Source: Cyclobacteriaceae bacterium
Lineage (GTDB): Bacteria > Bacteroidota > Bacteroidia > Cytophagales > Cyclobacteriaceae
Assembly (NCBI GenBank): GCA_016787605.1
Contig: JAEUUE010000138.1
Coordinates: forward strand, 1-64,000
Direction of reading: 5' to 3'
Length of the DNA: 64,000 nt
A program made the translations under genes and the position numbers. Under the pieces are notes generated by a model that did not search any database, was not told the origin of the DNA, and saw nothing but the letters and a program-made list of their open reading frames with translations. The stretch's first letter is position 1, and every line of letters starts with the position of its first letter. Shown piece after piece: positions 1 through 61,989 of the stretch.

Positions 1-863
1 TCTAAACGCACAGCCCGAAACCCATAATACCCTGCTTTATGGTGTTTCTCTTGAGTAAAGACCACTCCATTAAATGAATACATGAGAGCAGAATCCTTTG
101 AAGCATTGGCTGTCCACCAATAAATGATGGGTGAATGCGAATTCCACAACGGAGGTTCTTTATCGGGAGTAATCTTAAATTGTGTTTTCTTTGATTCAGG
201 ATACCAGGTGCCTGGCATGGGCTTTCCATGGTAATGGGTGGAGACAACGATTTCTTCAACTGTGGGCAAACGCCAAAGACCTACTATTGTGTCGGAAACA
301 TATTGACCATCGGGTGAGAGGTGCAGGCAAATTTCATTGGCTTCATTCCAGTTTGTCGCAGCACTGGGCCAACCCGGACCGGGAGGTGCCCAATTCAATT
401 TCTGTTTGTTAACCAGTGTTGTGAAGGGTTCACTAATATTTGCATTGTATCGTGTTGCTACCCTATAGGCAGGCTGGGCTCCTGAAACAATGAGTGTTAC
501 TATGGGCAACCCTAACACCATAAGCAAACTTATTTTTTTTGAAGGAAGTTCTGAAGCCCACCCTAAACCAGCTATTGCGAATAGGGGAATAAAAAAGAAC
601 CATTGTGAGAAGTAGTAGGCGATTGTAATTCCAAGGACTATAAATATTATGGTCCCAATTTTTTTGTAGTGTATTGAAATGGTACCCGGAATTAAAAGAA
701 TCCATACTGGAAGTAAATAGCGTGAGACAGTCAGCCAACAATTGTCGATAAAGGAAGTAAAGTACCAGCCTTCATAAAAGGATTCTACAATTCCCCAGAA
801 TGCCCAAAATGAAATGAGACTTGTTAGTATTGCTAGAAATAACCAACCAAGAATTTTTCTCAT
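1..863 (-). CDS. Membrane protein with C-terminal DUF1566-like domain (3' end outside window)
   Basis: The frame is open from the ATG at 863-861 to the window edge, 287 codons without a stop. The first 130 residues hold about five hydrophobic segments. The rest is polar and resembles the DUF1566 (Legionella Lcl C-terminal) domain: GLWRLPTVEE, then YWWTANAS, then FNGVV and GYYGFRAVRL. That family is found at bacterial surfaces and its function is poorly known. A membrane anchor carrying an outward-facing DUF1566 domain is an inference. The gene is 92 bases behind the DUF4350-like gene at 956-1870 and has a long palindrome in front of its start. Base composition is AT-rich like its neighbours. 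Confidence 0.75.
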   Translation of the reverse strand, partial: MRKILGWLFLAILTSLISFWAFWGIVESFYEGWYFTSFIDNCWLTVSRYLLPVWILLIPGTISIHYKKIGTIIFIVLGITIAYYFSQWFFFIPLFAIAGLGWASELPSKKISLLMVLGLPIVTLIVSGAQPAYRVATRYNANISEPFTTLVNKQKLNWAPPGPGWPSAATNWNEANEICLHLSPDGQYVSDTIVGLWRLPTVEEIVVSTHYHGKPMPGTWYPESKKTQFKITPDKEPPLWNSHSPIIYWWTANASKDSALMYSFNGVVFTQEKHHKAGYYGFRAVRL

Positions 864-924
864 GACATGAAATATGCCACCTTATGTGAAACTTGTAAAT
901 GACTTTGAGCAGGTTGAGGATTTA

Positions 925-947
925 TTTGATGAAATCATTTCATCAAA
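925..947. promoter_or_regulatory. Perfect 23-bp palindrome upstream of the DUF1566-like gene
   Basis: The 11-base arms TTTGATGAAAT and ATTTCATCAAA flank one central base. It lies between the stop of the gene at 956-1870 and the start of the gene at 1-863. No T-run follows on either strand, so a dimeric-regulator operator fits better than a terminator. The function is inferred. Confidence 0.5.
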
Positions 948-955
948 CAATTATG

Positions 956-1870
956 CTAATTTGTTAGCCAATGCATAATATTTAGCAGCAATTGTTTATT
1001 ATCAGTGATGCCGTAGTTCATTCCAAATTTTTGGTTTTCATGAATTTGGGCTGTTAGCATAGCAGCCTCACCCAGTATAACCACTTTACCTTGACCATGT
1101 TTAAGGGCAAGCCCTTGGCAAAGGCCATATGTTGAAACGTGATCTTGAAAACGAGCATTTGTAGATTTAAATACCCAAAAACCCGTATCCCAAATTGAAT
1201 CAGGCCTGGATTCAACGGATTGCTCTCCCAGTTTCAATAGTACTTCAGCCCCCGCAGGTACGGACAGGGACTGCCCAGTAAACGTCATTACCTTATCTAC
1301 TCCAGCGGTTATTTCATGTTCTGCCAACAATCCATTCTTCTTTGTAAAAAGGAGTTGGTCTTTCCAACCCGACTCTTGGTCGTAATGATTCGGATCAGAA
1401 TCCTCTACGGTACCTTCGCCCATGAATACGCCAAATTTTGCAGCCAAAGATTTTGTAGCCGTGCCTACCGGATAGTGATCGGTAACTAGCAGCAAGGAAC
1501 CTCCTTCACTAACCCACTTTTCAATCGTGTTGCATTCTGCATCATCAAAAGCAGGTTTATATTTATCGTTAATGCTTCCACCCATGGGATTTACGATAAC
1601 CAAAATTTGGTTCGTTTCTAACCGCGATTTTGTAATTGGAGAGCTATTGATGCTGAATTGGTATCCATCATTCTGCAGAATGTCTCTGAATGGACTATAC
1701 GTTTTATCCAGATGATGAATGTTGTTGTGACCTTCATCGTACAGAATGCTAATTGATCTGTCCTTTGCAAAGGGTGACGGAACCGTTGTATCAAATGTGG
1801 CATCCGGCTTTTGATCGTTACAATCAAAGAGAATAATTGAGGACAGAAATAGTACATACTTACTTTTCAT
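956..1870 (-). CDS. Secreted DUF4350-like (GATase-like fold) protein, paralogue 1
   Basis: 304 residues with a hydrophobic N-terminus ending in a cysteine at residue 17. The lipobox is imperfect (LFDC), so either a lipoprotein or an ordinary secreted protein is possible. The body follows the DUF4350/GIFT pattern: YDEGHNN near residue 44, a buried strand ending in VNPMGG, WVSEGGSLLLVTDHYP, and a C-terminal GKVVILGEAAMLTAQ then NKQLLLNIMHWL. It is clearly paralogous to the gene at 3296-4240, with an S41 protease between them. Members of this fold are thought to bind ligands rather than act as amidotransferases, and no catalytic Cys-His pair is evident. Its role in the envelope is unknown. Confidence 0.75.
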   Translation of the reverse strand: MKSKYVLFLSSIILFDCNDQKPDATFDTTVPSPFAKDRSISILYDEGHNNIHHLDKTYSPFRDILQNDGYQFSINSSPITKSRLETNQILVIVNPMGGSINDKYKPAFDDAECNTIEKWVSEGGSLLLVTDHYPVGTATKSLAAKFGVFMGEGTVEDSDPNHYDQESGWKDQLLFTKKNGLLAEHEITAGVDKVMTFTGQSLSVPAGAEVLLKLGEQSVESRPDSIWDTGFWVFKSTNARFQDHVSTYGLCQGLALKHGQGKVVILGEAAMLTAQIHENQKFGMNYGITDNKQLLLNIMHWLTN

Positions 1871-1935
1871 GATGGTAATTGTTTGTAACAGGTATTGTAA
1901 ACTCAGCAGGTGATAGCCAATATTTGGTTTATCCT

Positions 1936-3276
1936 CTATTTGTTCACTCTGTTTACCTTTTGGGGTTTTCCGCCATCATCCCAAATCCATTCAAAATAGG
2001 ACACTGGTTTGGAAGTAGTTGGCATTGTTAGTCTTAAAAAGCTTTTTTCCGTATTTTGAAATATACCCTTACCCATGTATTCAAGCTTCTCCTTTCCACC
2101 TTGACTATTGACATATACAATGCCGGAATTTTCGTAAAGTACTTTTCGGCCATCTTCATAGTTACCGATGAGTGCATTTATAATATTTTCAGTTAAAGGC
2201 TCCGGACTTAGTTCATTTTGTAAATATGGAATCTGCCATTCATAGATGAGTTTAAGTTCCTTCACATTGGTTCTTGAGGATAATGTTTTGCAGATTTCAA
2301 GCTTTGCCATTGGAAGCGCTTTTGAGGATGCAACTTGGATATCGGGCGTTACTCCTACTCCATCTATGGATTTTTTGGAAACGGGATTTATACTTTCAAT
2401 GGTAGGAATCATAATATAAAGTATGTCATTAATGGCAAATAGCTGGCCGGGATTTCCCTCACCTTTTGTTTGCTCACCGACAATGACTGCTCTTTTATAT
2501 TGTTGTAGTGTATAAGCAAATCCTTCTGCTGCAGAGGCAGTCTTGTTACTCACCAGGATATAAACCGGAGTTTGAGTTTGGATTTTATTGATCACATCAT
2601 CCTTAACAGTGAAGTTTTTTTCAATTCTATTCTCTTTTCTGAATCTCATTTCCGAGATCTGAGTAGAGTCTTGCAGGAAATAACTGAGTAGGAAGTTCAT
2701 CGTTTCTGAGTTACCACCTCCGTTATTTCTCAGGTCAATTATTACAGCAGATGAAAATCGAATAAAATTCATGGCCCCAACAAGAGTTGGTTTAGCGGGT
2801 TCAAGGGGTGGAAAATTCAAGAAGTTGAGATATCCAATGTTTCCATCCAAGCGCTCTACTTTTCTTATTCTGAAATTTTCAAAATGAAGTCTTTCCAACC
2901 ACTCGGGTGTGATTTCTTCCTTTTTACCATTCTTTTCATTTTCATTGTCAGAAACTATTTGTTTTACCCTTTCAGGTGAAAGGCCCATGCCGAGGTGAGT
3001 GTCGTTTCCTCGTTGTTGAATGTCTCGCTCAAAAACTTCAAGAAAATTAATTATACGAGACAACGAATCATATCCACCTGACTTTAGTTTCTCGTGAACG
3101 TATTTTTCGATTTGCTGTGCACGATCCGGAAAAATGTAGTTTTGTTGTATCAAGTCAACCGTTTTATCGATAATCTCAATTTTCTCTTTGTTTGAAATGC
3201 TCGCGTTTTTTTGCGCTGTTAATGTGCCGCACGTGAGGATAGCAAGACTCAATACCAGTGCTATTTTCATTTTCAT
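1936..3276 (-). CDS. S41 family serine peptidase (tail-specific/IRBP-like)
   Basis: 446 residues with a signal peptide ending near LTAQ (residues 1-22). An IRBP-like helical N-domain (about 25-110) is followed by the S41 core. The core shows VIIDLRNNGGGNSETM near residue 178, the nucleophile region NKTASAAEGFA with Ser248, and VGEQTKGEGNPGQ. There is no PDZ domain between them, as in the IRBP-like branch. It should cleave exported substrates in the periplasm. It lies 19 bases after one DUF4350-like gene and 65 bases before the other, in what looks like one operon starting at the LytTR gene. The substrate is unknown, but the flanking paralogues are natural partner candidates. Confidence 0.85.
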   Translation of the reverse strand: MKMKIALVLSLAILTCGTLTAQKNASISNKEKIEIIDKTVDLIQQNYIFPDRAQQIEKYVHEKLKSGGYDSLSRIINFLEVFERDIQQRGNDTHLGMGLSPERVKQIVSDNENEKNGKKEEITPEWLERLHFENFRIRKVERLDGNIGYLNFLNFPPLEPAKPTLVGAMNFIRFSSAVIIDLRNNGGGNSETMNFLLSYFLQDSTQISEMRFRKENRIEKNFTVKDDVINKIQTQTPVYILVSNKTASAAEGFAYTLQQYKRAVIVGEQTKGEGNPGQLFAINDILYIMIPTIESINPVSKKSIDGVGVTPDIQVASSKALPMAKLEICKTLSSRTNVKELKLIYEWQIPYLQNELSPEPLTENIINALIGNYEDGRKVLYENSGIVYVNSQGGKEKLEYMGKGIFQNTEKSFLRLTMPTTSKPVSYFEWIWDDGGKPQKVNRVNK

Positions 3277-3295
3277 AATTGAAGTTGGATTAGTT

Positions 3296-4240
3296 TTATA
3301 ATTTTCGAGATAGCCAGTGCATGATGTTCAAGGCAAACTGCTTATTGTGATTATTGCCCGCATTCATTCCTTGCTTTTGTCCTTCTACTACCAGCGCTGT
3401 AAGCATATTACCATCACCCAGAAATACTACTCTACCTTTACCTAGCTCAAAGGCAAGTGCCTGGCTTAAACCGGCAACCGATACGGGATCTACAAAGCGT
3501 ACATAGGTTTGTTTGAACAAGCCTTTGCCCGTAGTCCACGTAGAATCCGGCTTTGATTCTTTAGCGTACTCACTAAATTTTAGCAGATTGCTATATTCAT
3601 TATTGATTGATTTTAGAGAAGTGCCACTAAATGAACTCACCGTGGACACTGATTCATTCTTATCCTTTCCCTTTAAAATGATATGCTCAGCCAATAAGTT
3701 ATTCTCTTTACTGAATAAAAGGTTTTCTCTTCGCATTGAGGCTTTGTCATAGTTTTTGGAATCTGTAACCACGCCTCCACCGACTTTTACACCAAGTAAA
3801 TCTGTTACGTTCTTAGACGCTGATGAGGAATAGTAGTTATCTATAATTAGGAGGAGAGAACCTCCATTCTTGATCCAATTGATTAGGTGGGTACACTCCT
3901 GACTTTGAAAGATTACTTTTTCTTTATCCATATACCTTCCACCTCGCGGATTGATGATGATCATGGTGTTAACTCCTTGTAAGGCAGAAGAGGAAATTTC
4001 ACTAGAAGTAAAACTAAGTGTATATCCATCTGCTCTTAACAGTTTAAAAAGAGGCTCATAACTATCATCATTTGATAAATTGTAATGAGCTTCATCTACC
4101 ATAATTTTCTGACCATTATTGGTATAAGCAGGAGAACTGACTGTTACGTTAAATTCTTTGTCAACATCCTGCGCCAATGAAACAATTGAAGCGATTAAGA
4201 ATAGTGAACTACAACTTATAATGAGTACATTCAGATTCAT
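3296..4240 (-). CDS. Secreted DUF4350-like protein, paralogue 2
   Basis: 314 residues with a signal peptide ending about SLAQ (residue 24). It shares with the gene at 956-1870 the blocks VDEAHYN, LRADGYT, IINPRGG, WIKNGGSLLLIIDNY, GKGRVVFLGDGNMLTA and NKQFALNIMHWL, so a tandem duplication with divergence is likely. Its ATG overlaps the stop of the small membrane protein gene (ATGA, 4237-4240), implying translational coupling. It belongs to the same GATase-like fold group, has no visible catalytic centre and is predicted to be periplasmic. The function is unknown. Confidence 0.75.
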   Translation of the reverse strand: MNLNVLIISCSSLFLIASIVSLAQDVDKEFNVTVSSPAYTNNGQKIMVDEAHYNLSNDDSYEPLFKLLRADGYTLSFTSSEISSSALQGVNTMIIINPRGGRYMDKEKVIFQSQECTHLINWIKNGGSLLLIIDNYYSSSASKNVTDLLGVKVGGGVVTDSKNYDKASMRRENLLFSKENNLLAEHIILKGKDKNESVSTVSSFSGTSLKSINNEYSNLLKFSEYAKESKPDSTWTTGKGLFKQTYVRFVDPVSVAGLSQALAFELGKGRVVFLGDGNMLTALVVEGQKQGMNAGNNHNKQFALNIMHWLSRKL

Positions 4241-4641
4241 TCTTTTTTGTTTGGTTGGAGACGAAGAATTATATAGTAGGCTAAAAAAGAAATTGAGAGC
4301 AGGGAAAATATTATCAATAGAAAGACATTATCCGACTCTGGGATACCCAGTATGGGAGCATGCTGGATTAGGGTGAACGAAAGTGCAAGCGAAGCAAAAA
4401 TGAGGCACCATTTAAGTGGAGTTTTTTTTTGCTGATTAGTGGCTAGGAGAAAAGCCTTCATGCCATTTTCTTCCTGTGCCCTTTCCATCATTTTCATTTG
4501 CACCCGAAAATCTAATCTTGCTTTAAAGGCCGAAACCAGTGTTTGCAGTATCATTATTAAGAGTGACATGACGCTGATGATTTCTATCACTTTATCGGAC
4601 AATATTTTGCTGGTTGTTGATATAGCCTGAATGTCATCCAT
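4237..4641 (-). CDS. Small membrane protein (DUF6249-like), paralogue 1
   Basis: 134 residues with three hydrophobic segments, near 18-38, 78-97 and 105-126. A charged helix (RLDFRVQMKMMERAQEENG) lies between the first two. It shares SDKVIE, LQTLV, PLKW and the C-terminal FLAYYIIL pattern with the protein at 7482-7925. Small membrane proteins of this shape (DUF6249-like, my recollection, unconfirmed) occur beside sigma factors in Bacteroidota. It sits between the LytTR gene (8-base gap) and the DUF4350-like gene (4-base overlap). A role as membrane sensor or anti-regulator is only an inference. Confidence 0.65.
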   Translation of the reverse strand: MDDIQAISTTSKILSDKVIEIISVMSLLIMILQTLVSAFKARLDFRVQMKMMERAQEENGMKAFLLATNQQKKTPLKWCLIFASLALSFTLIQHAPILGIPESDNVFLLIIFSLLSISFLAYYIILRLQPNKKE

Positions 4642-4649
4642 ATTGCTGC

Positions 4650-4988
4650 TTATTTAGTAGCCAGGGCATTCTTTACGTACCTTTTAAAAGTCTTCCCAAT
4701 GGGAATTTTTAATTGATTCTGGAGTTGAATTGCGTCCTCATCCACTCTTTCAATTTTTGAGATGTTTATAATGAAGGATTTATGAACCCGAATGAATAAA
4801 TCGGCTGGCAGTGAATGCTCCATTTCACTTGTAGTTGCTTTTGTAATTAATGTCTCTTTGTCTGTGATGATCTTTACATAATTTCCAAAACTTTGAAAGT
4901 GGCTAATTTTATTAACCTGGATAGGTACACCCTGACCATCAATGTTTAATGTGATTTCTTCAAATGCCACCATTTCCTGCAAATCCAT
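4650..4988 (-). CDS. Stand-alone LytTR DNA-binding protein
   Basis: 112 residues that are almost entirely a LytTR domain: ISHFQSFGNYVKIITD, then DLFIRVHKSFIINISKIERV, then PIGKTFKRYV. No receiver domain precedes it, so it cannot be controlled by phosphotransfer to itself. The same blocks recur in the full response regulator at 61297-61989. It is the first gene of a leftward operon leading to the small membrane protein, the DUF4350-like pair and the S41 protease. An ECF-type promoter (4998-5025) ends ten bases before its ATG. It probably activates or represses envelope genes. Its targets are unknown. Confidence 0.85.
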   Translation of the reverse strand: MDLQEMVAFEEITLNIDGQGVPIQVNKISHFQSFGNYVKIITDKETLITKATTSEMEHSLPADLFIRVHKSFIINISKIERVDEDAIQLQNQLKIPIGKTFKRYVKNALATK

Positions 4989-4997
4989 TTGATGCCA

Positions 4998-5025
4998 TTG
5001 GACAGGGGCATGGTTAAAAAGTTGC
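4998..5025 (-). promoter_or_regulatory. ECF-type promoter for the LytTR operon
   Basis: On the minus strand GCAACTTT (5025-5018) is followed by 14 bases and GTCCAA (5003-4998), ten bases before the ATG. ECF sigma factors typically read an AAC-containing -35 and a GTC-containing -10. The same spacing and bases recur at 5050-5077 and 8014-8041. Confidence 0.65.
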
Positions 5026-5049
5026 GGAAGAATAGATTTTTTTTGATCT

Positions 5050-5077
5050 GCAACTTTCGCTAAAGGATTTGGTCTAA
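5050..5077 (+). promoter_or_regulatory. ECF-type promoter for the FtsX-type permease gene
   Basis: GCAACTTT (5050-5057), 14 bases, then GTCTAA (5072-5077). The expected start of transcription falls within a base or two of the ATG at 5084, so the message would be nearly leaderless. The -35 boxes of this and the divergent LytTR promoter form an inverted pair 24 bases apart. Confidence 0.65.
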
Positions 5078-5083
5078 TTCCGC

Positions 5084-7480
5084 ATGTTAAAAAGCATATT
5101 CATTACAGCAATCCGGAATATTTTGCGGAACAAGGCATTATCCATCATCAATTTATTGGGGCTTACGATCAGTATGTCACTGAGTCTATTGATAATCATT
5201 ATAGTCAGAGGTCAGTTTACTTATGACAATTTTCATCGGGATTCTGATTTGATATTTCGCGTGAACACACTGGCTTTGCGAATGGATGGTGGCGAGGAAG
5301 CGTATGCCTCCGTGCCCCTAGCGGTACCTACCGCACTGGTAGAGGAATATGATTATGTGGAGACTTTGGTGAGGATTGACAGACAAATGAATGGCGATAT
5401 TCTGTATAAGAACAGTAAACTACCGGTACTTGGAGTTTTCGTGGACCAACAATTTTTTGAGGTGTTCAATTTTGAACTTGAAAGTGGAAATGTACACGAG
5501 GTATTAACTCAACCCAATACAGCTGTGCTCACACATGCGGCTGCATTAAAATTGTTTGGAACTGACAATGCCCTGGGTGAGATTATCAATTTTGGAAGAT
5601 TTGGAGAGTTCAAAGTGACAGGTGTACTCAAGCCATTTCAAGGTAAATCACATTTTGATGAATTTGAAATTTATGCTTCGTTTGCTTCGGTACCTTTGTT
5701 GGAGAAAGAACATTCCCTTGAGCCTACCACCCTTAATTGGAATAATTATTATACGGGAAGTGCTTACATCAAATTAAAGAAAAACGTGAACCCCTGGCAG
5801 GTTGAAAAGGCGTTGGATAATATTTACAGAAAGAACTATGCAGACATTGAGTATGAGACCAGAGACCGAGGCTACAAGTTTTATCTTCAGAATTTGGATG
5901 AGATTACACCCGGCCCGCTACTATCCAATAGTTATGGCAGGGGAATGCCATTATTACTAATCATTCTTCTTGGCGCATTGGCAGGTATTGTTATGATTAT
6001 GGCTTGCTTTAATTATACGCAATTAATGATTGCGAAATCCCTGACACGGGCCAAGGAGGTAGGTGTACGGAAAATTAATGGGGGGAATCGTGTTCAGATT
6101 TTTGTACAGTTCATTGGTGAGTCTGTATTGCTTTCACTCGTATCCCTGGTGGTGGCTTTTTTCATTCTTCAACTATTGAAATATCAATTTTCGCAACTAT
6201 ACATGACCCGGGATTTTGCAGTTGGGTTAAGTGAAGGTTATGCAGAATGGATCTATTTTTTCCTCTTTGCAGTACTCACAGGAGTATTAGCAGGTCTTTT
6301 CCCCGCCTTATATATTTCTTCTTTTAATCCCCTTAATGTTTTACGTGCTCAGGGTAATTTAAAGCTTTCGTCAAGATTAACATTCAGAAAAGTCCTGCTT
6401 ATTACACAATTCGCATTTTCATTGATTTTTGTCATGTCTATCATAGCTATACGGGAACAAGCTAATTATTTAGTAAAAGCTGATTATGGATTTAGTCAAG
6501 AAGGTTTACTCAACATCCGTTTACACGGAGTTAATAGAACTCAATTGATGAACAAAATTGCCGGACTTAGTGGTGTTGTGCGTGTTGGCAGTATTTCTCA
6601 TAGCCTTGGGACATGGGAAGATGGCGTCAGCGATTGGAAAATAGATATTGGGGATAATGCATTTACGATGCGGGATTTCAGGGTGGACGAAAATTATCTT
6701 AAAAATATAGACGCCCGATTCATAGCTGGAAAGGGATTCGAACAAGGATCCGTCAGGCAGGTGGTGCTGAATGCGCTTGCATTGAAACGGTTTGGATTCA
6801 CCGGCCCTCATGAAGCTATAGGTGAGACAATATATTACAGAGACACTACTGCCTTAACGATTGCTGGTATTATTAATGATTTTCATATCCGGCCTCTAAC
6901 AGCGGGCATGGAGCCAGTTGCTTTTATATATGATCCTGAGCGCACTTACCTGGTTTCTGTAAAATATGTTGGTGACCCTGTTTCATTAATTGAACAGATA
7001 CAGGGTATTTGGAAGGATCTTGAAACCAGGCCACTGGATTATCGATTCATGACAGAAGAGATTGATAATGCCTATCAATCGGCAGGGTTGTTTGATCTCC
7101 TGATCATCGTGGGTTACTGCGGATTACTAACGATTACTTTGGCTTGTTTAGGTGTTCTTGGAATGGCTATGTCAAATTCACAAGCCAAGCGAAAGGAAGT
7201 GGCTATCCGAAAAATAACCGGTGCCAGTAATTTTGAAATAGTGCACTATCTAACAAAATCCTTCCTGATAATTTTAGTAACAGCTACGATCATTGGTTTA
7301 CCTCTTAGTTATATTTTAATAGACCAGTTTCTCAGCATGTATGCATATAAGGCTGATCTTTCAATATTCTCTTATCTGGCTGGGGTTGGTTTTCTTTTTA
7401 TTTCAGGTTTACTGATTGTAAGTACCCAAACAGTCTCCGTTGCAACCGGGCATTTGGTTGATTCATTGCGCAGGGAATGA
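5084..7480 (+). CDS. ABC transporter permease, MacB/FtsX type
   Basis: 798 residues in the usual Bacteroidota layout of two MacB-type halves. There is an N-terminal membrane helix (about 18-40), a long extracytoplasmic domain, three helices with the FtsX motif (TRAKEVGVRKINGG near 325), a second extracytoplasmic domain, and a C-terminal FtsX set (QAKRKEVAIRKITGAS). Such proteins need a separate ATPase and usually act in mechanotransmission or efflux, not import. No ATPase gene is adjacent, so one must be borrowed. An ECF-type promoter lies immediately upstream. The AT-rich composition sets it apart from the GC-rich permeases at 27458-32390. Confidence 0.88.
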   Translation: MLKSIFITAIRNILRNKALSIINLLGLTISMSLSLLIIIIVRGQFTYDNFHRDSDLIFRVNTLALRMDGGEEAYASVPLAVPTALVEEYDYVETLVRIDRQMNGDILYKNSKLPVLGVFVDQQFFEVFNFELESGNVHEVLTQPNTAVLTHAAALKLFGTDNALGEIINFGRFGEFKVTGVLKPFQGKSHFDEFEIYASFASVPLLEKEHSLEPTTLNWNNYYTGSAYIKLKKNVNPWQVEKALDNIYRKNYADIEYETRDRGYKFYLQNLDEITPGPLLSNSYGRGMPLLLIILLGALAGIVMIMACFNYTQLMIAKSLTRAKEVGVRKINGGNRVQIFVQFIGESVLLSLVSLVVAFFILQLLKYQFSQLYMTRDFAVGLSEGYAEWIYFFLFAVLTGVLAGLFPALYISSFNPLNVLRAQGNLKLSSRLTFRKVLLITQFAFSLIFVMSIIAIREQANYLVKADYGFSQEGLLNIRLHGVNRTQLMNKIAGLSGVVRVGSISHSLGTWEDGVSDWKIDIGDNAFTMRDFRVDENYLKNIDARFIAGKGFEQGSVRQVVLNALALKRFGFTGPHEAIGETIYYRDTTALTIAGIINDFHIRPLTAGMEPVAFIYDPERTYLVSVKYVGDPVSLIEQIQGIWKDLETRPLDYRFMTEEIDNAYQSAGLFDLLIIVGYCGLLTITLACLGVLGMAMSNSQAKRKEVAIRKITGASNFEIVHYLTKSFLIILVTATIIGLPLSYILIDQFLSMYAYKADLSIFSYLAGVGFLFISGLLIVSTQTVSVATGHLVDSLRRE

Positions 7481-7481
7481 T

Positions 7482-7925
7482 TTATTTTTTTCTGTTGAGA
7501 ATGAGATAATAGGCAAGAAAGGCCAGAGACATTAGTATAAATACTATTGAAAGACTCAGTAATTCAGATATAGGTGATGATTCGTTTATTGATAATATGG
7601 TAAAGAATGAGACCGCCAGAGCCATGGTGAGGAACGCCCATTTAAGCGGTTCAAGTTTTGTGATTCTTTCCGTTTCATTAAACAATTTGAACATCGCTTC
7701 GTGATTACCTTCTTTCTCAAGAATTCTCTCCTTGAGTTTTTGATTCGCTCGTATTTTAATTATAGTGACCAGGGCTTGGAGCACCATTGTAATTATAAAC
7801 ATGGGAACCGCAAATTCTATAATCTTGTCCGAGAGCATCCAAGGTCTCGGAGGTGCTTCCTCCTGCGCGACAGTGTCCAAAGGCAAAATGAAAAGGAAAA
7901 AGAACAGGTATGCTAAAGTTTTCAT
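7482..7925 (-). CDS. Small membrane protein (DUF6249-like), paralogue 2
   Basis: 147 residues with a signal-like first helix (residues 1-20, ending VAQE) and three further hydrophobic segments. It is paralogous to the protein at 4237-4641: SDKIIE, LQALV, a charged helix, PLKW and SLAFLAYYLIL match in order. It ends one base after the permease stop, convergent with it, and is divergent from the ECF sigma gene. I saw no copy of the GCAACTTT promoter in front of it. The function is unknown; a membrane partner for the sigma/anti-sigma or permease system is plausible. Confidence 0.65.
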   Translation of the reverse strand: MKTLAYLFFFLFILPLDTVAQEEAPPRPWMLSDKIIEFAVPMFIITMVLQALVTIIKIRANQKLKERILEKEGNHEAMFKLFNETERITKLEPLKWAFLTMALAVSFFTILSINESSPISELLSLSIVFILMSLAFLAYYLILNRKK

Positions 7926-8013
7926 TTTAAAATATGTCTTGCCACATTGTTTGTTATAGCCAAATTACGGTAATTGTTCAGGGTGTAACAAGGCTTTAAG
8001 TAAATCGAAAGCT

Positions 8014-8041
8014 GCAACTTTTAACAAAAGAGGTTGTCAAA
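8014..8041 (+). promoter_or_regulatory. ECF-type promoter for the sigma factor gene (autoregulation)
   Basis: GCAACTTT (8014-8021), 14 bases, then GTCAAA (8036-8041). The -10 element overlaps a possible TTG start at 8034, which argues for translation from the ATG at 8061. A sigma gene behind its own type of promoter implies autoregulation. Confidence 0.65.
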
Positions 8042-8060
8042 TATCGATTCGGCATTGACA

Positions 8061-8606
8061 ATGGGTCCAGAACAAGAAAAAGAGTTAGTGGAGGCCGTTT
8101 TGAATAACGACAAAAGAGCATTCGAAGTGCTTGTCGGTCAATATGAGCGGCTGATACTGCATATCATTTTTCCTGTAATTAAAAGTAATGAGGACAGAAA
8201 GGACTTATTGCAGGAAGTGCTGATTAGGATCTATCAAAATCTTGGCATGTTCAGATTCAAGTCGAAATTATCAACATGGATTGGCAATATTGCCTACAAT
8301 GCAACGATCAATTACGTCAAGAAAAAGAAACTGCCATTGGCAAGCCCTGAAAACCTGAATCAGTCTGAAGATTGGGTAATAGAACGCTTAAATCCGGAGC
8401 AAGAATTTATAGCGCGGGAACTGGAAGCAACAGTATTCGGAGTAATGGGCAAATTACCACCAATACAGCAAATGGTCTTACGATTGTTTCATCATGATGA
8501 GATGACACTTGATGAGATTTGTGAAGTAACAAAGCTTCCTGTCAATACCGTTAAGAGTCACTTATTCAGAGGAAGGTTAGCAATCAAAAATTCAATTCAA
8601 CAATAA
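8061..8606 (+). CDS. ECF RNA polymerase sigma factor
   Basis: 181 residues from the ATG at 8061. Region 2 shows the DRKDLLQEVLIRIYQNL core-binding segment and FKSKLSTWIGNIAYNATINYVKKKK. Region 4 shows PPIQQMVLRLFHHDEMTLDEICEV followed by the helix-turn-helix PVNTVKSHLFRGRLAIK. The usual ECF length is about 170-200 residues. It is followed after five bases by a zinc-motif anti-sigma gene. A TTG at 8034 would add nine residues but lies inside the promoter. It most likely directs the three GCAACTTT-N14-GTC promoters in this zone. Confidence 0.92.
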   Translation: MGPEQEKELVEAVLNNDKRAFEVLVGQYERLILHIIFPVIKSNEDRKDLLQEVLIRIYQNLGMFRFKSKLSTWIGNIAYNATINYVKKKKLPLASPENLNQSEDWVIERLNPEQEFIARELEATVFGVMGKLPPIQQMVLRLFHHDEMTLDEICEVTKLPVNTVKSHLFRGRLAIKNSIQQ

Positions 8607-8611
8607 ATTAA

Positions 8612-9037
8612 ATGAGTATGGAAAAGCGTAATCACTATACAGATACAGAGTTTCAAGAAGTTTTGAATGGAACTTACAATGGAAATATCGATGAACTCCA
8701 CGCCCATTTAGAAAGATGTGTTGAGTGTAGAAGCCAATCTGAAGTCTATCAAATAATAGGTAAAGTATTAAGAAGTGAACGTGTTCAGTTTACCGAAACC
8801 CCCAAAGTTGTCAATCAAGCCTGGGAGCATGTTCAACGCAATCGACTTTCATCAAGTATTGACGAGATTCAATTTTGGTCCATTGTTATTGCTTGCAGTG
8901 TTGTAGTATTAGTTTGCCTTGGTTATCTGATTTCAATCGGAACCAGCAAAACTATTGTGATTGCTGTAATTGGACTTATTGGTGTTTACCTTTTTTCATC
9001 CATGAAGGAGATACGCCTATTGGCTGGAAATCATTGA
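8612..9037 (+). CDS. Zinc-motif anti-sigma factor
   Basis: 141 residues. The N-terminal half carries the HxxxCxxC pattern of zinc-type anti-sigma domains (HAHLERCVECRSQ near residue 30). The C-terminal half has two closely spaced hydrophobic segments (about 90-110 and 112-128), placing the sigma-binding domain on the cytoplasmic face. It directly follows the ECF sigma gene, the classical arrangement. The periplasmic part is very short, so any signal probably comes from a partner membrane protein; the two small membrane proteins nearby are candidates. The partner assignment is an inference from position. Confidence 0.8.
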   Translation: MSMEKRNHYTDTEFQEVLNGTYNGNIDELHAHLERCVECRSQSEVYQIIGKVLRSERVQFTETPKVVNQAWEHVQRNRLSSSIDEIQFWSIVIACSVVVLVCLGYLISIGTSKTIVIAVIGLIGVYLFSSMKEIRLLAGNH

Positions 9038-9082
9038 TTGGTCAACTGATTCTGATTTTCTATCAATAATCCAAAATTGGGA

Positions 9083-9373
9083 TCATTCAGACGAAAACGT
9101 ATTGATATTATTCATATATTTCATTTGCTGAATTTTTCTGCCCAAGAGTCCTAATTTGGCCTTGAGTTGGCTCATATCCTCACTTACCTTAATATCAAGA
9201 GTTTTTGCATAATGCTGAGTAGTCTTTAAATTCTTATGGCATAACATTCTGCTAACCGTTTCCAATAGGACTCCATTTGTAAGCGTTACCGTTGTGGCAA
9301 ATGTGTGAGGCGCTGTATGAGTTGTCCTTTTCTTTAGAATATCGCATGCGTCCGCTATTGTATTCCCCAGGAC
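9083..9373 (-). pseudogene. 3' remnant of a tyrosine recombinase (integrase)
   Basis: About 96 codons remain of the catalytic C-terminus: IADACDILKK, then HTAPHTFATTVTLTNG, then METVSRMLCHKNLKTTQHYAKTLDIKVSEDM-like text (first codon here TTG). In active Bacteroidota integrases the segment reads HxxRHTFATT. Here the arginine is proline, so a catalytic residue is lost as well as the whole N-terminal two thirds. The frame meets a stop at 9376-9374. The remnant marks the edge between the AT-rich and GC-rich zones. Confidence 0.8.
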
Positions 9374-9566
9374 TTACAAAATGGGCTACGATGCGACTCG
9401 GACGGAGCGGTACAAACTCATCAAATACCGGGACCTGGAGGGAATGGATGAACTGTACGACCTGGAAAAAGATCCATACGAACTGAACAATGTGATCAGC
9501 TCCTCTGAACTGGAGACGGTAAGAAGGTCTTTGGCGGAATTACTCGCTCAGGCCATCCGACGCTGA
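9372..9566 (+). pseudogene. 3' remnant of a sulfatase
   Basis: The last 60 or so codons of a sulfatase: YDATRTERYKLIKY, then DELYDLEKDPYELNNV, the common C-terminal signature of the alkaline phosphatase-like sulfatases. The catalytic N-terminus with its C/S-x-P-S-R site is absent and no start fits. The composition is GC-rich, like everything to the right. The break with the integrase remnant lies between about 9360 and 9375; the exact base cannot be fixed by eye. Confidence 0.75.
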
Positions 9567-29869: not shown

Positions 29870-29996
29870 ATCGCTACTGTTTTGGGTAAAGCAGTCCTGC
29901 TCGCACATACGGCGAGGAGTAACTGCTCACGGGGTTAGGGATTTGAAGCTTAGACGCCGGCGCGGGGGAAGATGTTGCAGCTCATCCGAACATTTT

Positions 29997-32390: not shown

Positions 32391-32449
32391 CGGCGAAGGG
32401 GTAATGGTGTATAGACTGTAAATACAGGGAAAAGGTTGCGCGCAGTATG

Positions 32450-33376: not shown

Positions 33377-33489
33377 AGTATTTCGGTGTTAAGGGTTAGA
33401 TGCAGTTTATAGTGGAATAGTTTTGTTGAATACTGTCTTTTTTCGCGATCGTTACAGGCATTAGACGCTATCTTACTCAAATAGTTGCA

Positions 33490-61296: not shown

Positions 61297-61989
61297 ATGA
61301 AACTCAGAACCGTTTTGATTGATGATGAGCCCAGGGCTCACGTCATCCTTGAAAATTATGCCTCAAGGACCAACCAGATTGAGTTAGTCGGGAAATTTCT
61401 CAATGCCGCGAGTGCGTTGGAGTTCATGCAGAATCATGAGGTTGACCTGATCCTGCTGGACATCACGATGCCGGTGATGGATGGCTTCAGTTTTCTGTCC
61501 AAACTTTCCAAACCGCCGATGGTGATCTTCACCACGGCCTATGCCGAATTTGCACTGGAGAGCTACGAGTTCAATGCCCTGGATTATTTAAGAAAGCCAA
61601 TCCCATACGAACGATTCGCGAAAGCCATTGAAAAGGCGAAGGCCCGAATCCTGGGTACCGATCGAACCCGGCACCTCCCTACCTCCATTACTTTGAAAAT
61701 AGATAACAAGGATGTCCAGCTTCCATTCGACACCATTAGTTACTTTCAGAGCTTTGGCAACTATGTCAAGATCTTTACTGCCGGCAAAGTCCTTATTACT
61801 CAAATTACAACCAAGGAAATCGAGGAGCATCTCCCGATCCAGACCTTTGTGAGAATCCATAAGTCCTTCATCGTGAATCGACTCAAGATTCAAAGCATAA
61901 ACGACTCATTCATTACCCTGGACGGGAAGCAACTGCCCATCGGCAAAACGTTCAAAGTCTATTTCAAAACCTCTGTTACCGATCAATAG
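61297..61989 (+). CDS. LytTR response regulator
   Basis: 230 residues. The receiver has the conserved LIDDEPRA and phosphorylation Asp in LILLDITMPVMDG (about 55), then Thr-Thr-Ala in VIFTTAYAEFAL and Lys in YLRKPI. The LytTR domain from about 130 shows YFQSFGNYVKIF, FVRIHKSFIVNRL and PIGKTFKVYF, closely like the stand-alone domain at 4650-4988. It pairs with the LytS-type kinase upstream. Confidence 0.93.
   Translation: MKLRTVLIDDEPRAHVILENYASRTNQIELVGKFLNAASALEFMQNHEVDLILLDITMPVMDGFSFLSKLSKPPMVIFTTAYAEFALESYEFNALDYLRKPIPYERFAKAIEKAKARILGTDRTRHLPTSITLKIDNKDVQLPFDTISYFQSFGNYVKIFTAGKVLITQITTKEIEEHLPIQTFVRIHKSFIVNRLKIQSINDSFITLDGKQLPIGKTFKVYFKTSVTDQ

Follow-up and report, generated by a model that had tools for sequence, protein, structure and literature searches.

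The closest described counterparts of the locus reported here are RpoE-RseA of Escherichia coli and SigW-RsiW of Bacillus, in which a sigma factor of sigma2 and sigma4 domains is encoded beside its anti-sigma factor and has a promoter with AAC and GTC boxes before its own gene. AAC/CGT promoter boxes, a co-transcribed anti-sigma factor and autoregulation are given as the original defining traits of extracytoplasmic function (ECF) sigma factors in excerpts of one article (PMC8103513), and by those excerpts the general design of our locus is already known. We investigated the first 64,000 nucleotides of contig JAEUUE010000138.1 from a Cyclobacteriaceae bacterium (GCA_016787605.1; hereafter the window), in which three copies of a promoter-like motif lie between positions 4998 and 8041, before an ECF sigma gene, an FtsX/MacB-type permease gene and a LytTR gene. 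The locus shares the three features of the described systems, with a predicted anti-sigma factor that is homologous to RseA and RsiW. Our preferred reading, to which we give a probability of roughly 80%, is that of a probably acquired, autoregulated sigma/anti-sigma module whose own sigma factor would read all three promoters.

Three promoter copies and the adjoining sigma/anti-sigma pair

The motif, GCAACTTT-N14-GTCNAA, has exactly three matches in the window, at 4998-5025 on the minus strand and at 5050-5077 and 8014-8041 on the plus strand. All three are intergenic and face the LytTR gene, the permease gene and the sigma gene, respectively, the first two being arranged head to head; a preliminary description had reported these copies, with their identical spacing and the same genes behind them, and the exact scan agreed with it. 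It had also judged three such matches unlikely by chance, and when the window was shuffled 100 times with dinucleotides preserved, no shuffle contained even one. A scan of the whole genome (3,976,415 bases in 191 contigs) returned no further exact match. An accidental origin could appeal to the reversed control string, which itself occurs exactly once in the genome, and to the six genomic matches found with one mismatch allowed, against ten for the control, which puts the one-mismatch class at chance level; with the empty shuffles, the position of all three copies before genes and the recurrence of the motif in relatives (see below), we regard this explanation as negligible.

We scored the window with a weight matrix whose training set was 43 sigma promoters from other loci, including that of a paralog in the same genome and excluding the window sites. 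Six sites exceeded 9, all of them before genes: 8013 (24.3), 29979 (19.8), 5049 (19.8), 5026 (15.2), 33489 (14.4) and 32440 (13.3). The sigma gene's predicted ECF-type promoter, TGCAACTTT..TGTCAAA, thus ranks first in the 64 kb, that of the permease third (tied for second) and that of the LytTR operon fourth. Thirty shuffles within 500-base blocks gave a mean of 4.3 sites above 9 and a best score of 17.4, so that by score alone only the values of 24.3, 19.8 and 19.8 stand out, two of these three being the sigma and permease copies. The exact string was rejected as a marker across genomes, where it is uninformative (46 of 291 genomes of the order, 55 listed matches, with the reversed control commoner at about 119 by hand count); the base after AAC is variable among the promoters of relatives. 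A promoter and terminator scan of positions 1-9400, which stayed near shuffle level (33 versus 26.1, standard deviation 4.5, and 8 versus 7.3, standard deviation 3.2), was not used.

The sigma gene (8061..8606, plus strand) encodes a 181-amino-acid RpoE/SigW/AlgU-like protein, recognised by Pfam, NCBIfam and PDB profile matches, that consists of sigma2 and sigma4 domains only (PF04542 and PF08281, both over cut-off), the composition of group IV. A 40-sequence profile that includes the window protein found its best PDB matches in sigma-H/AlgU, SigW and RpoE chains. The copy at 8014-8041 places AAC in the -35 box and GTC in the -10 box before the gene itself, where GTC or CGT would be expected of an ECF promoter, and the arrangement recurs in relatives. 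Five nucleotides after the sigma gene follows a predicted class I anti-sigma gene (8612..9037, plus strand). A profile of 22 sequences, again including the window's, matched RseA (1or7_C, E=6.5e-8) and RsiW (5wuq_C, E=4.6e-5), by which inhibition of the sigma factor is predicted; the protein carries HLERCVEC, a form of HxxxCxxC, and its model (mean pLDDT 82) has two long C-terminal helices whose sequence looks hydrophobic. No relevant Pfam match was obtained for it at 0.001, and a Foldseek search with the model was not significant (best E=0.47, ChrR).

The HxxxCxxC motif is present in 18 of 86 anti-sigma loci, and Pfam zf-HC2 matches 4 of the 22 anti-sigma factors scanned. The motif occurs in none of a 63-row Bacteroidota clade of the sigma tree (support 100/98), in which two loci had no anti-sigma frame that we could find. 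According to the portion of PMC7406223 that we consulted, 6% of Bacteroidetes ECF sigma factors adjoin class I anti-sigma domains, against an average of 32%; anti-sigma factors mostly missed by Pfam may help to explain this seeming rarity, which is a puzzle in the same portion of that article.

In the mechanism that we propose, a membrane-bound RseA/RsiW-like anti-sigma factor would hold the sigma factor at rest, until an envelope signal released it. RNA polymerase with the freed sigma factor would then read GCAACTTT-N14-GTC before its own operon, in positive feedback, and would also turn on the permease and the LytTR operon. If the minus-strand genes form one operon, as we suppose, its output would be a DUF6249-like membrane protein, an S41 peptidase, two GIFT/DUF4350-like proteins and a second-tier DNA-binding regulator, and the module would have an envelope role.

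Recurrence of the promoter in relatives and before DUF6249 genes

We identified the same kind of promoter before sigma genes in other genomes. Among same-family homologues (35-42% identity), all 29 loci have GCAAC-N-GTC immediately upstream of the sigma gene. We compared 51 loci, made up of 40 retrieved stretches (one of them with the own-genome paralog) and 11 found by a search of the class; they include 28 of the 29 family loci. The strict form GCAAC-N17/18-GTC precedes 43 of these 51 sigma genes, with an AAC-GTC spacing of 17 in ten loci and 18 in 33. Seven of the remaining eight have TGCAAC with GAC for GTC; the last keeps GTC behind TGTAAC. At E<=1e-25 such a sigma factor was found in 12 of 395 genomes of the class, its own included. 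A scan of named genomes, with results taken from its best 80 loci, showed the motif also in Calditrichota, KSB1 and Zixibacteria records, and CGTC in several Bacillota relatives. With all loci pooled and duplicates removed, GCAAC-N-G(T/A)C is present in 69 of 82 Bacteroidota loci, and a site in 16 of 49 loci outside this phylum.

A second copy of the motif near the sigma genes of relatives points to a recurrent target. A frame follows 106 such sites, 72 of which passed the motif filter; after motif and size filters, 65 distinct sites precede frames of 101-159 amino acids. DUF6249 (PF19762, E<=0.01) was matched by 56 of the 58 proteins scanned (56 from the loci and two from the window). The DUF6249 gene is usually divergent from the sigma gene; ZAS-type loci such as L106-L108, L147, L154 and L166 have theirs on the same strand as the sigma gene, about 1 kb further downstream. 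In 15 of 40 loci the sigma gene has an FtsX-type gene no more than 7 kb away. Together with the promoters before sigma genes (43 of 51 loci), these second copies lend good support to the earlier proposal that the sigma factor at 8061-8606 would act on all three promoters, its own among them.

A profile of the target genes built without the window matched exactly two of its 60 open reading frames. One (7482..7925, minus strand, E=7e-20) is divergent from the sigma gene and encodes a 147-amino-acid membrane protein with a signal-peptide-like N-terminus; the other (4237..4641, minus strand, E=1.6e-17) lies within the LytTR operon and is 32% identical to it, so that this operon contains a member of the recurrent target family. 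The small membrane protein of the preliminary description is the one at 4237-4641; the kinship of this protein and of 7482-7925 with the target family had escaped that description. Neither protein reaches the PF19762 cut-off (26.6 bits versus 33 for 7482-7925; no match at 0.001 for 4237-4641), and a structure search with a DUF6249 model gave no significant match. In all, 28 places in 12 whole genomes match DUF6249 at E<=0.01, and these are not confined to this sigma factor. The module thus seems to be a DUF6249-linked, autoregulated ECF module with FtsX/MacB and LytTR branches.

The same comparisons bear on whether the motif might instead be the binding site of another protein, such as the LytTR regulator. 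LytTR proteins bind spaced repeats, and one copy of the motif does precede a LytTR gene. The motif halves, however, are dissimilar and correspond to the -35 and -10 boxes of ECF promoters; relatives have the motif before their sigma genes, and LytTR proteins occur in only two of the 40 relatives' loci (L098 and L099), as longer proteins of 238-266 amino acids at a distance of 4-6 kb. We consider such a binding site very unlikely.

Reach of the proposed regulon and gene content of the block

With the pattern TGCAACNT-N14/15-TGTCNHA, we counted 26 sites in 12 whole genomes; by their coordinates, 18 belong to the sigma locus and 8 lie elsewhere, versus 7 matches of the control. The wholly local regulon that these numbers suggested was withdrawn after a wider pattern (T or C before GTC), with 60 sites versus 14 for the control in the 12 genomes, exposed a second, dispersed class of promoters. 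Its form TGCAAC-N-GCGTCTWA has 18 sites in eight genomes of the genus and none in the control. We inspected 40 distinct sites of the wider class, namely these 18 and others that were picked from among the matches, many of them mutually orthologous. They precede 11 MacB/FtsX permeases, 13 ABC ATPases, four PadR genes, five DUF4097-like genes, four genes for other exported proteins and one other gene, with no clear gene at two (ten representatives were assigned by Pfam, the others by the look of the sequence). Two sites fall within a called frame, one of them without a clear gene and one in an upstream extension of its own PadR frame.

The window has native sites of this kind. In a MacA/MacB-like row, 22-28 kb from the block's own sites, promoter-like sites at 33461-33489, 32411-32440 and 29950-29979 (all minus strand) precede the ATPase and the two permeases of four genes, the HlyD-type gene having none. 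They are of the TGCAAC- or CGCAAC-N-GTC type and resemble the motif in the -35 box, the GTC and the spacing. The outer two are members of the dispersed class; 32411-32440, before the next permease, is weaker. All 11 of the genus relatives that we examined retain the site at 33461-33489, out of the 18 of 21 genus genomes that have the neighbouring gene. Around four sites of the dispersed class we sought a sigma gene, and found one distant sigma-like gene (22% identity; L314), some 3 kb from its site and lacking a promoter of this class, and none at the others.

The eight nearest relatives of the permease (42-50% identity) comprise six in the genus and two in the same genome, and no DUF6249 gene was found around them. 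Two of those in other genomes of the genus have sigma genes of other kinds nearby: one relative (L309, 7179-10394) directly follows an ECF-type sigma gene (26%), and another lies about 7 kb downstream of an ECF-type sigma gene (28%; L304, 5034-5632) that has a TGCAAC..TGTC site before it.

Because of the dispersed class we withdraw the word closed, which the preliminary description had applied to the regulon. The exact string is indeed unique to the locus in this genome, and a closed regulon is plausible; related native sites nevertheless stand before MacB-type genes, and the LytTR operon may leave the contig. A resident sigma factor of the host, either the C5 paralog or whichever one serves the dispersed TGCAAC-N-CGTC class, might read the permease and LytTR promoters, alone or with the block's own sigma factor, in which case the regulon would be open and shared. 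The paralog (C5:44415) has two promoters of the same build, the GCGTCTWA form is absent from the control, 28 of the 40 inspected sites precede permeases, ABC ATPases or PadR genes, and TGCAAC-N-CGTC sites stand before two of the nearest permease relatives, one in the same genome (45%) and one in G844 (47%). The sites nevertheless differ: those of the block have TTT after AAC, TGTC or GGTC, and a spacing of 17, those on C5 have ATT or ATC and a spacing of 18, and the dispersed class has CGTC. As the simplest partner of the motif is the sigma gene adjoining its own promoter, we consider a resident reader unlikely, and prefer the module's own sigma factor.

Several observations weigh against that preference. 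The sigma factor sits on a long branch (1.05) of the sigma tree without close kin. The Bacteroidota rows belong to two large clades, of 19 and 63 rows, and it lies in neither; it groups with five Pseudomonadota rows (99/88), a placement that the long branch makes unsure. Its promoter specificity is therefore extrapolated from proteins no more than 42% identical to it. The LytTR site falls inside the shuffle range, with C as its first base where relatives have T, and 13 of the 82 Bacteroidota loci lack the strict form (several have TGTAAC or TGAAAC, one is cut by a contig end, and L157 has no evident site). DUF6249 genes are the usual target in relatives, yet 7482-7925 lacks the motif in front (the matrix finds nothing above 9 there); among the 40 loci we noticed no motif leading into a stand-alone LytTR gene; and similar sites are found outside sigma loci as well.

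The genes behind the two further promoters are as follows. The permease (5084..7480, plus strand, 798 amino acids) matches PF12704 (MacB_PCD) and PF02687 (FtsX) over the Pfam cut-off, and stays below the NCBIfam cut-off for the ADOP-type family TIGR03434 (196 versus 622 bits); no ATPase was found among the genes of the block that were scanned. The predicted stand-alone LytTR DNA-binding protein (4650..4988, minus strand; PF04397, E=2.6e-19) is encoded by the first gene of the minus-strand operon, and Pfam found no receiver domain in it. A response regulator at 61297-61989 (plus strand) has a LytTR domain 50% identical to it over 98 amino acids, and the two may share binding sites. Further along the row, the S41 protease named earlier is present (1936..3276, minus strand; PF03572, E=4.5e-28), between two GIFT/DUF4350-like proteins (3296..4240 and 956..1870, both minus strand) that are 46% identical. 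The first of these has an N-terminus that looks like an export signal, and its matches to PF14258 and PF03345 are under cut-off. A reading frame at 1..863 (minus strand) runs off the contig and may prolong the operon: the window is the left end of the 122,086-base contig C120, whose end interrupts the row, and the operon may run past it.

As a query for a sister of the block, the first GIFT protein was found in 9 of 395 genomes, its own included, and window-like neighbours were absent from the 1.5-kb flanks of the loci returned, apart from the window itself and a pair on contig C153 of the same genome. There a GIFT/DUF4350-like paralog (L306, 3477-5024; 29% identity) is convergent to another ECF sigma gene, placing the family near an ECF sigma gene a second time in this genome.

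The block has probably been acquired. G+C content is 36-41% at positions 1-9000 and 52-60% at 10-58 kb, and the edge of 1-9350 is the probable border of an acquired island. At this border we noted a cut sulfatase C-terminus (9381-9566; PF16347) and a short frame resembling a recombinase end (9083-9265; by look only, with no Pfam match).

Start-codon distances and known modules

A site with GTC or GAC is present at 69 Bacteroidota loci, and at 61 of these an in-frame ATG of the sigma gene follows, at a distance from the -10 box of 10 nucleotides in 33 loci, 11 in 11, 12 in nine, 13 in three, 14 in two, and 16, 8 and 2 in one each; it is thus 10-14 nucleotides away in 58 of 61. For five loci with two candidate ATGs the one nearest 10 was taken, which favours a leaderless reading. 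Five of the eight loci without an ATG have GTG or TTG at 10-11 nucleotides. Outside Bacteroidota, an ATG follows at 7 of the 16 loci with a site, at 4-35 nucleotides. The distances of DUF6249-type targets, counted to the first ATG that opens at least 80 codons and with a few targets from outside Bacteroidota, are 19-55 nucleotides in 59 of 65, 70-73 in two and 2 in four. For E. coli sigma-E, GTC occupies -12 to -10. If it does so here, the first transcribed base would lie about nine nucleotides past GTC, at or next to the sigma ATG, and leaderless sigma mRNAs are predicted in the Bacteroidota relatives.

The order is reversed in the window, where the permease ATG lies 9, the LytTR ATG 12 and the sigma ATG (8061) 22 nucleotides past GTC, the LytTR and sigma starts being uncertain. 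We tentatively suggest, at a little under even odds, that in the Bacteroidota clade leaderless sigma mRNAs and ordinary leaders on DUF6249 targets make the mode of translation a built-in control, and that the island has this reversed, with leaderless permease and LytTR mRNAs and a short sigma leader. In the sections of two articles that we consulted, leaderless transcripts make up 5.5% in Flavobacterium psychrophilum (PMC9723704) and about 3.7% of 5' untranslated regions are shorter than 10 nucleotides in Bacteroides thetaiotaomicron (PMC7366714). The prediction thus concerns a phylum in which leaderless transcripts are reported to be rare, and ordinary mapping of 5' ends can check it.

Our literature search on DUF6249 found nothing related. 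Searches on ECF factors with FtsX/MacB in Bacteroidota or Cytophagales, on GCAAC promoters, on genomic context and on leaderless autoregulation found no description of the module in the titles and abstract openings that they returned; the clade may already be numbered in the published ECF classification. Through the comparison, DUF6249, whose function is not known, acquires a regulatory context in Bacteroidota and some other phyla.

Compared with RpoE-RseA and SigW-RsiW, the module has a target set that is apparently small and local and consists of DUF6249, FtsX/MacB and LytTR genes, and its Bacteroidota relatives have the sigma start codon at the expected start of transcription. The paralogous module in the same genome (G000:C5:41378-45300; L085) is alike in its sigma factor, the following anti-sigma-like gene, head-to-head promoters, a DUF6249 gene and an FtsX permease. 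Its sigma factor, however, is 34-35% identical, its -35 box is TGCAACAT with a spacing of 18, its anti-sigma factor lacks HxxxCxxC, and no LytTR, S41 or GIFT match lies within 7 kb. The ZAS-type modules (Ferruginibacter L154, Sediminibacterium L147, Lacihabitans L166, and L106-L108) have sigma factors of at most 42% identity, and share the HxxxCxxC anti-sigma factor, the spacing of 17 and a DUF6249 protein with a signal-peptide-like start. FtsX and LytTR genes were not seen in the short stretches examined for L106-L108, and the ZAS-type modules differ from the island in having the DUF6249 gene downstream of the sigma gene and in the same direction.

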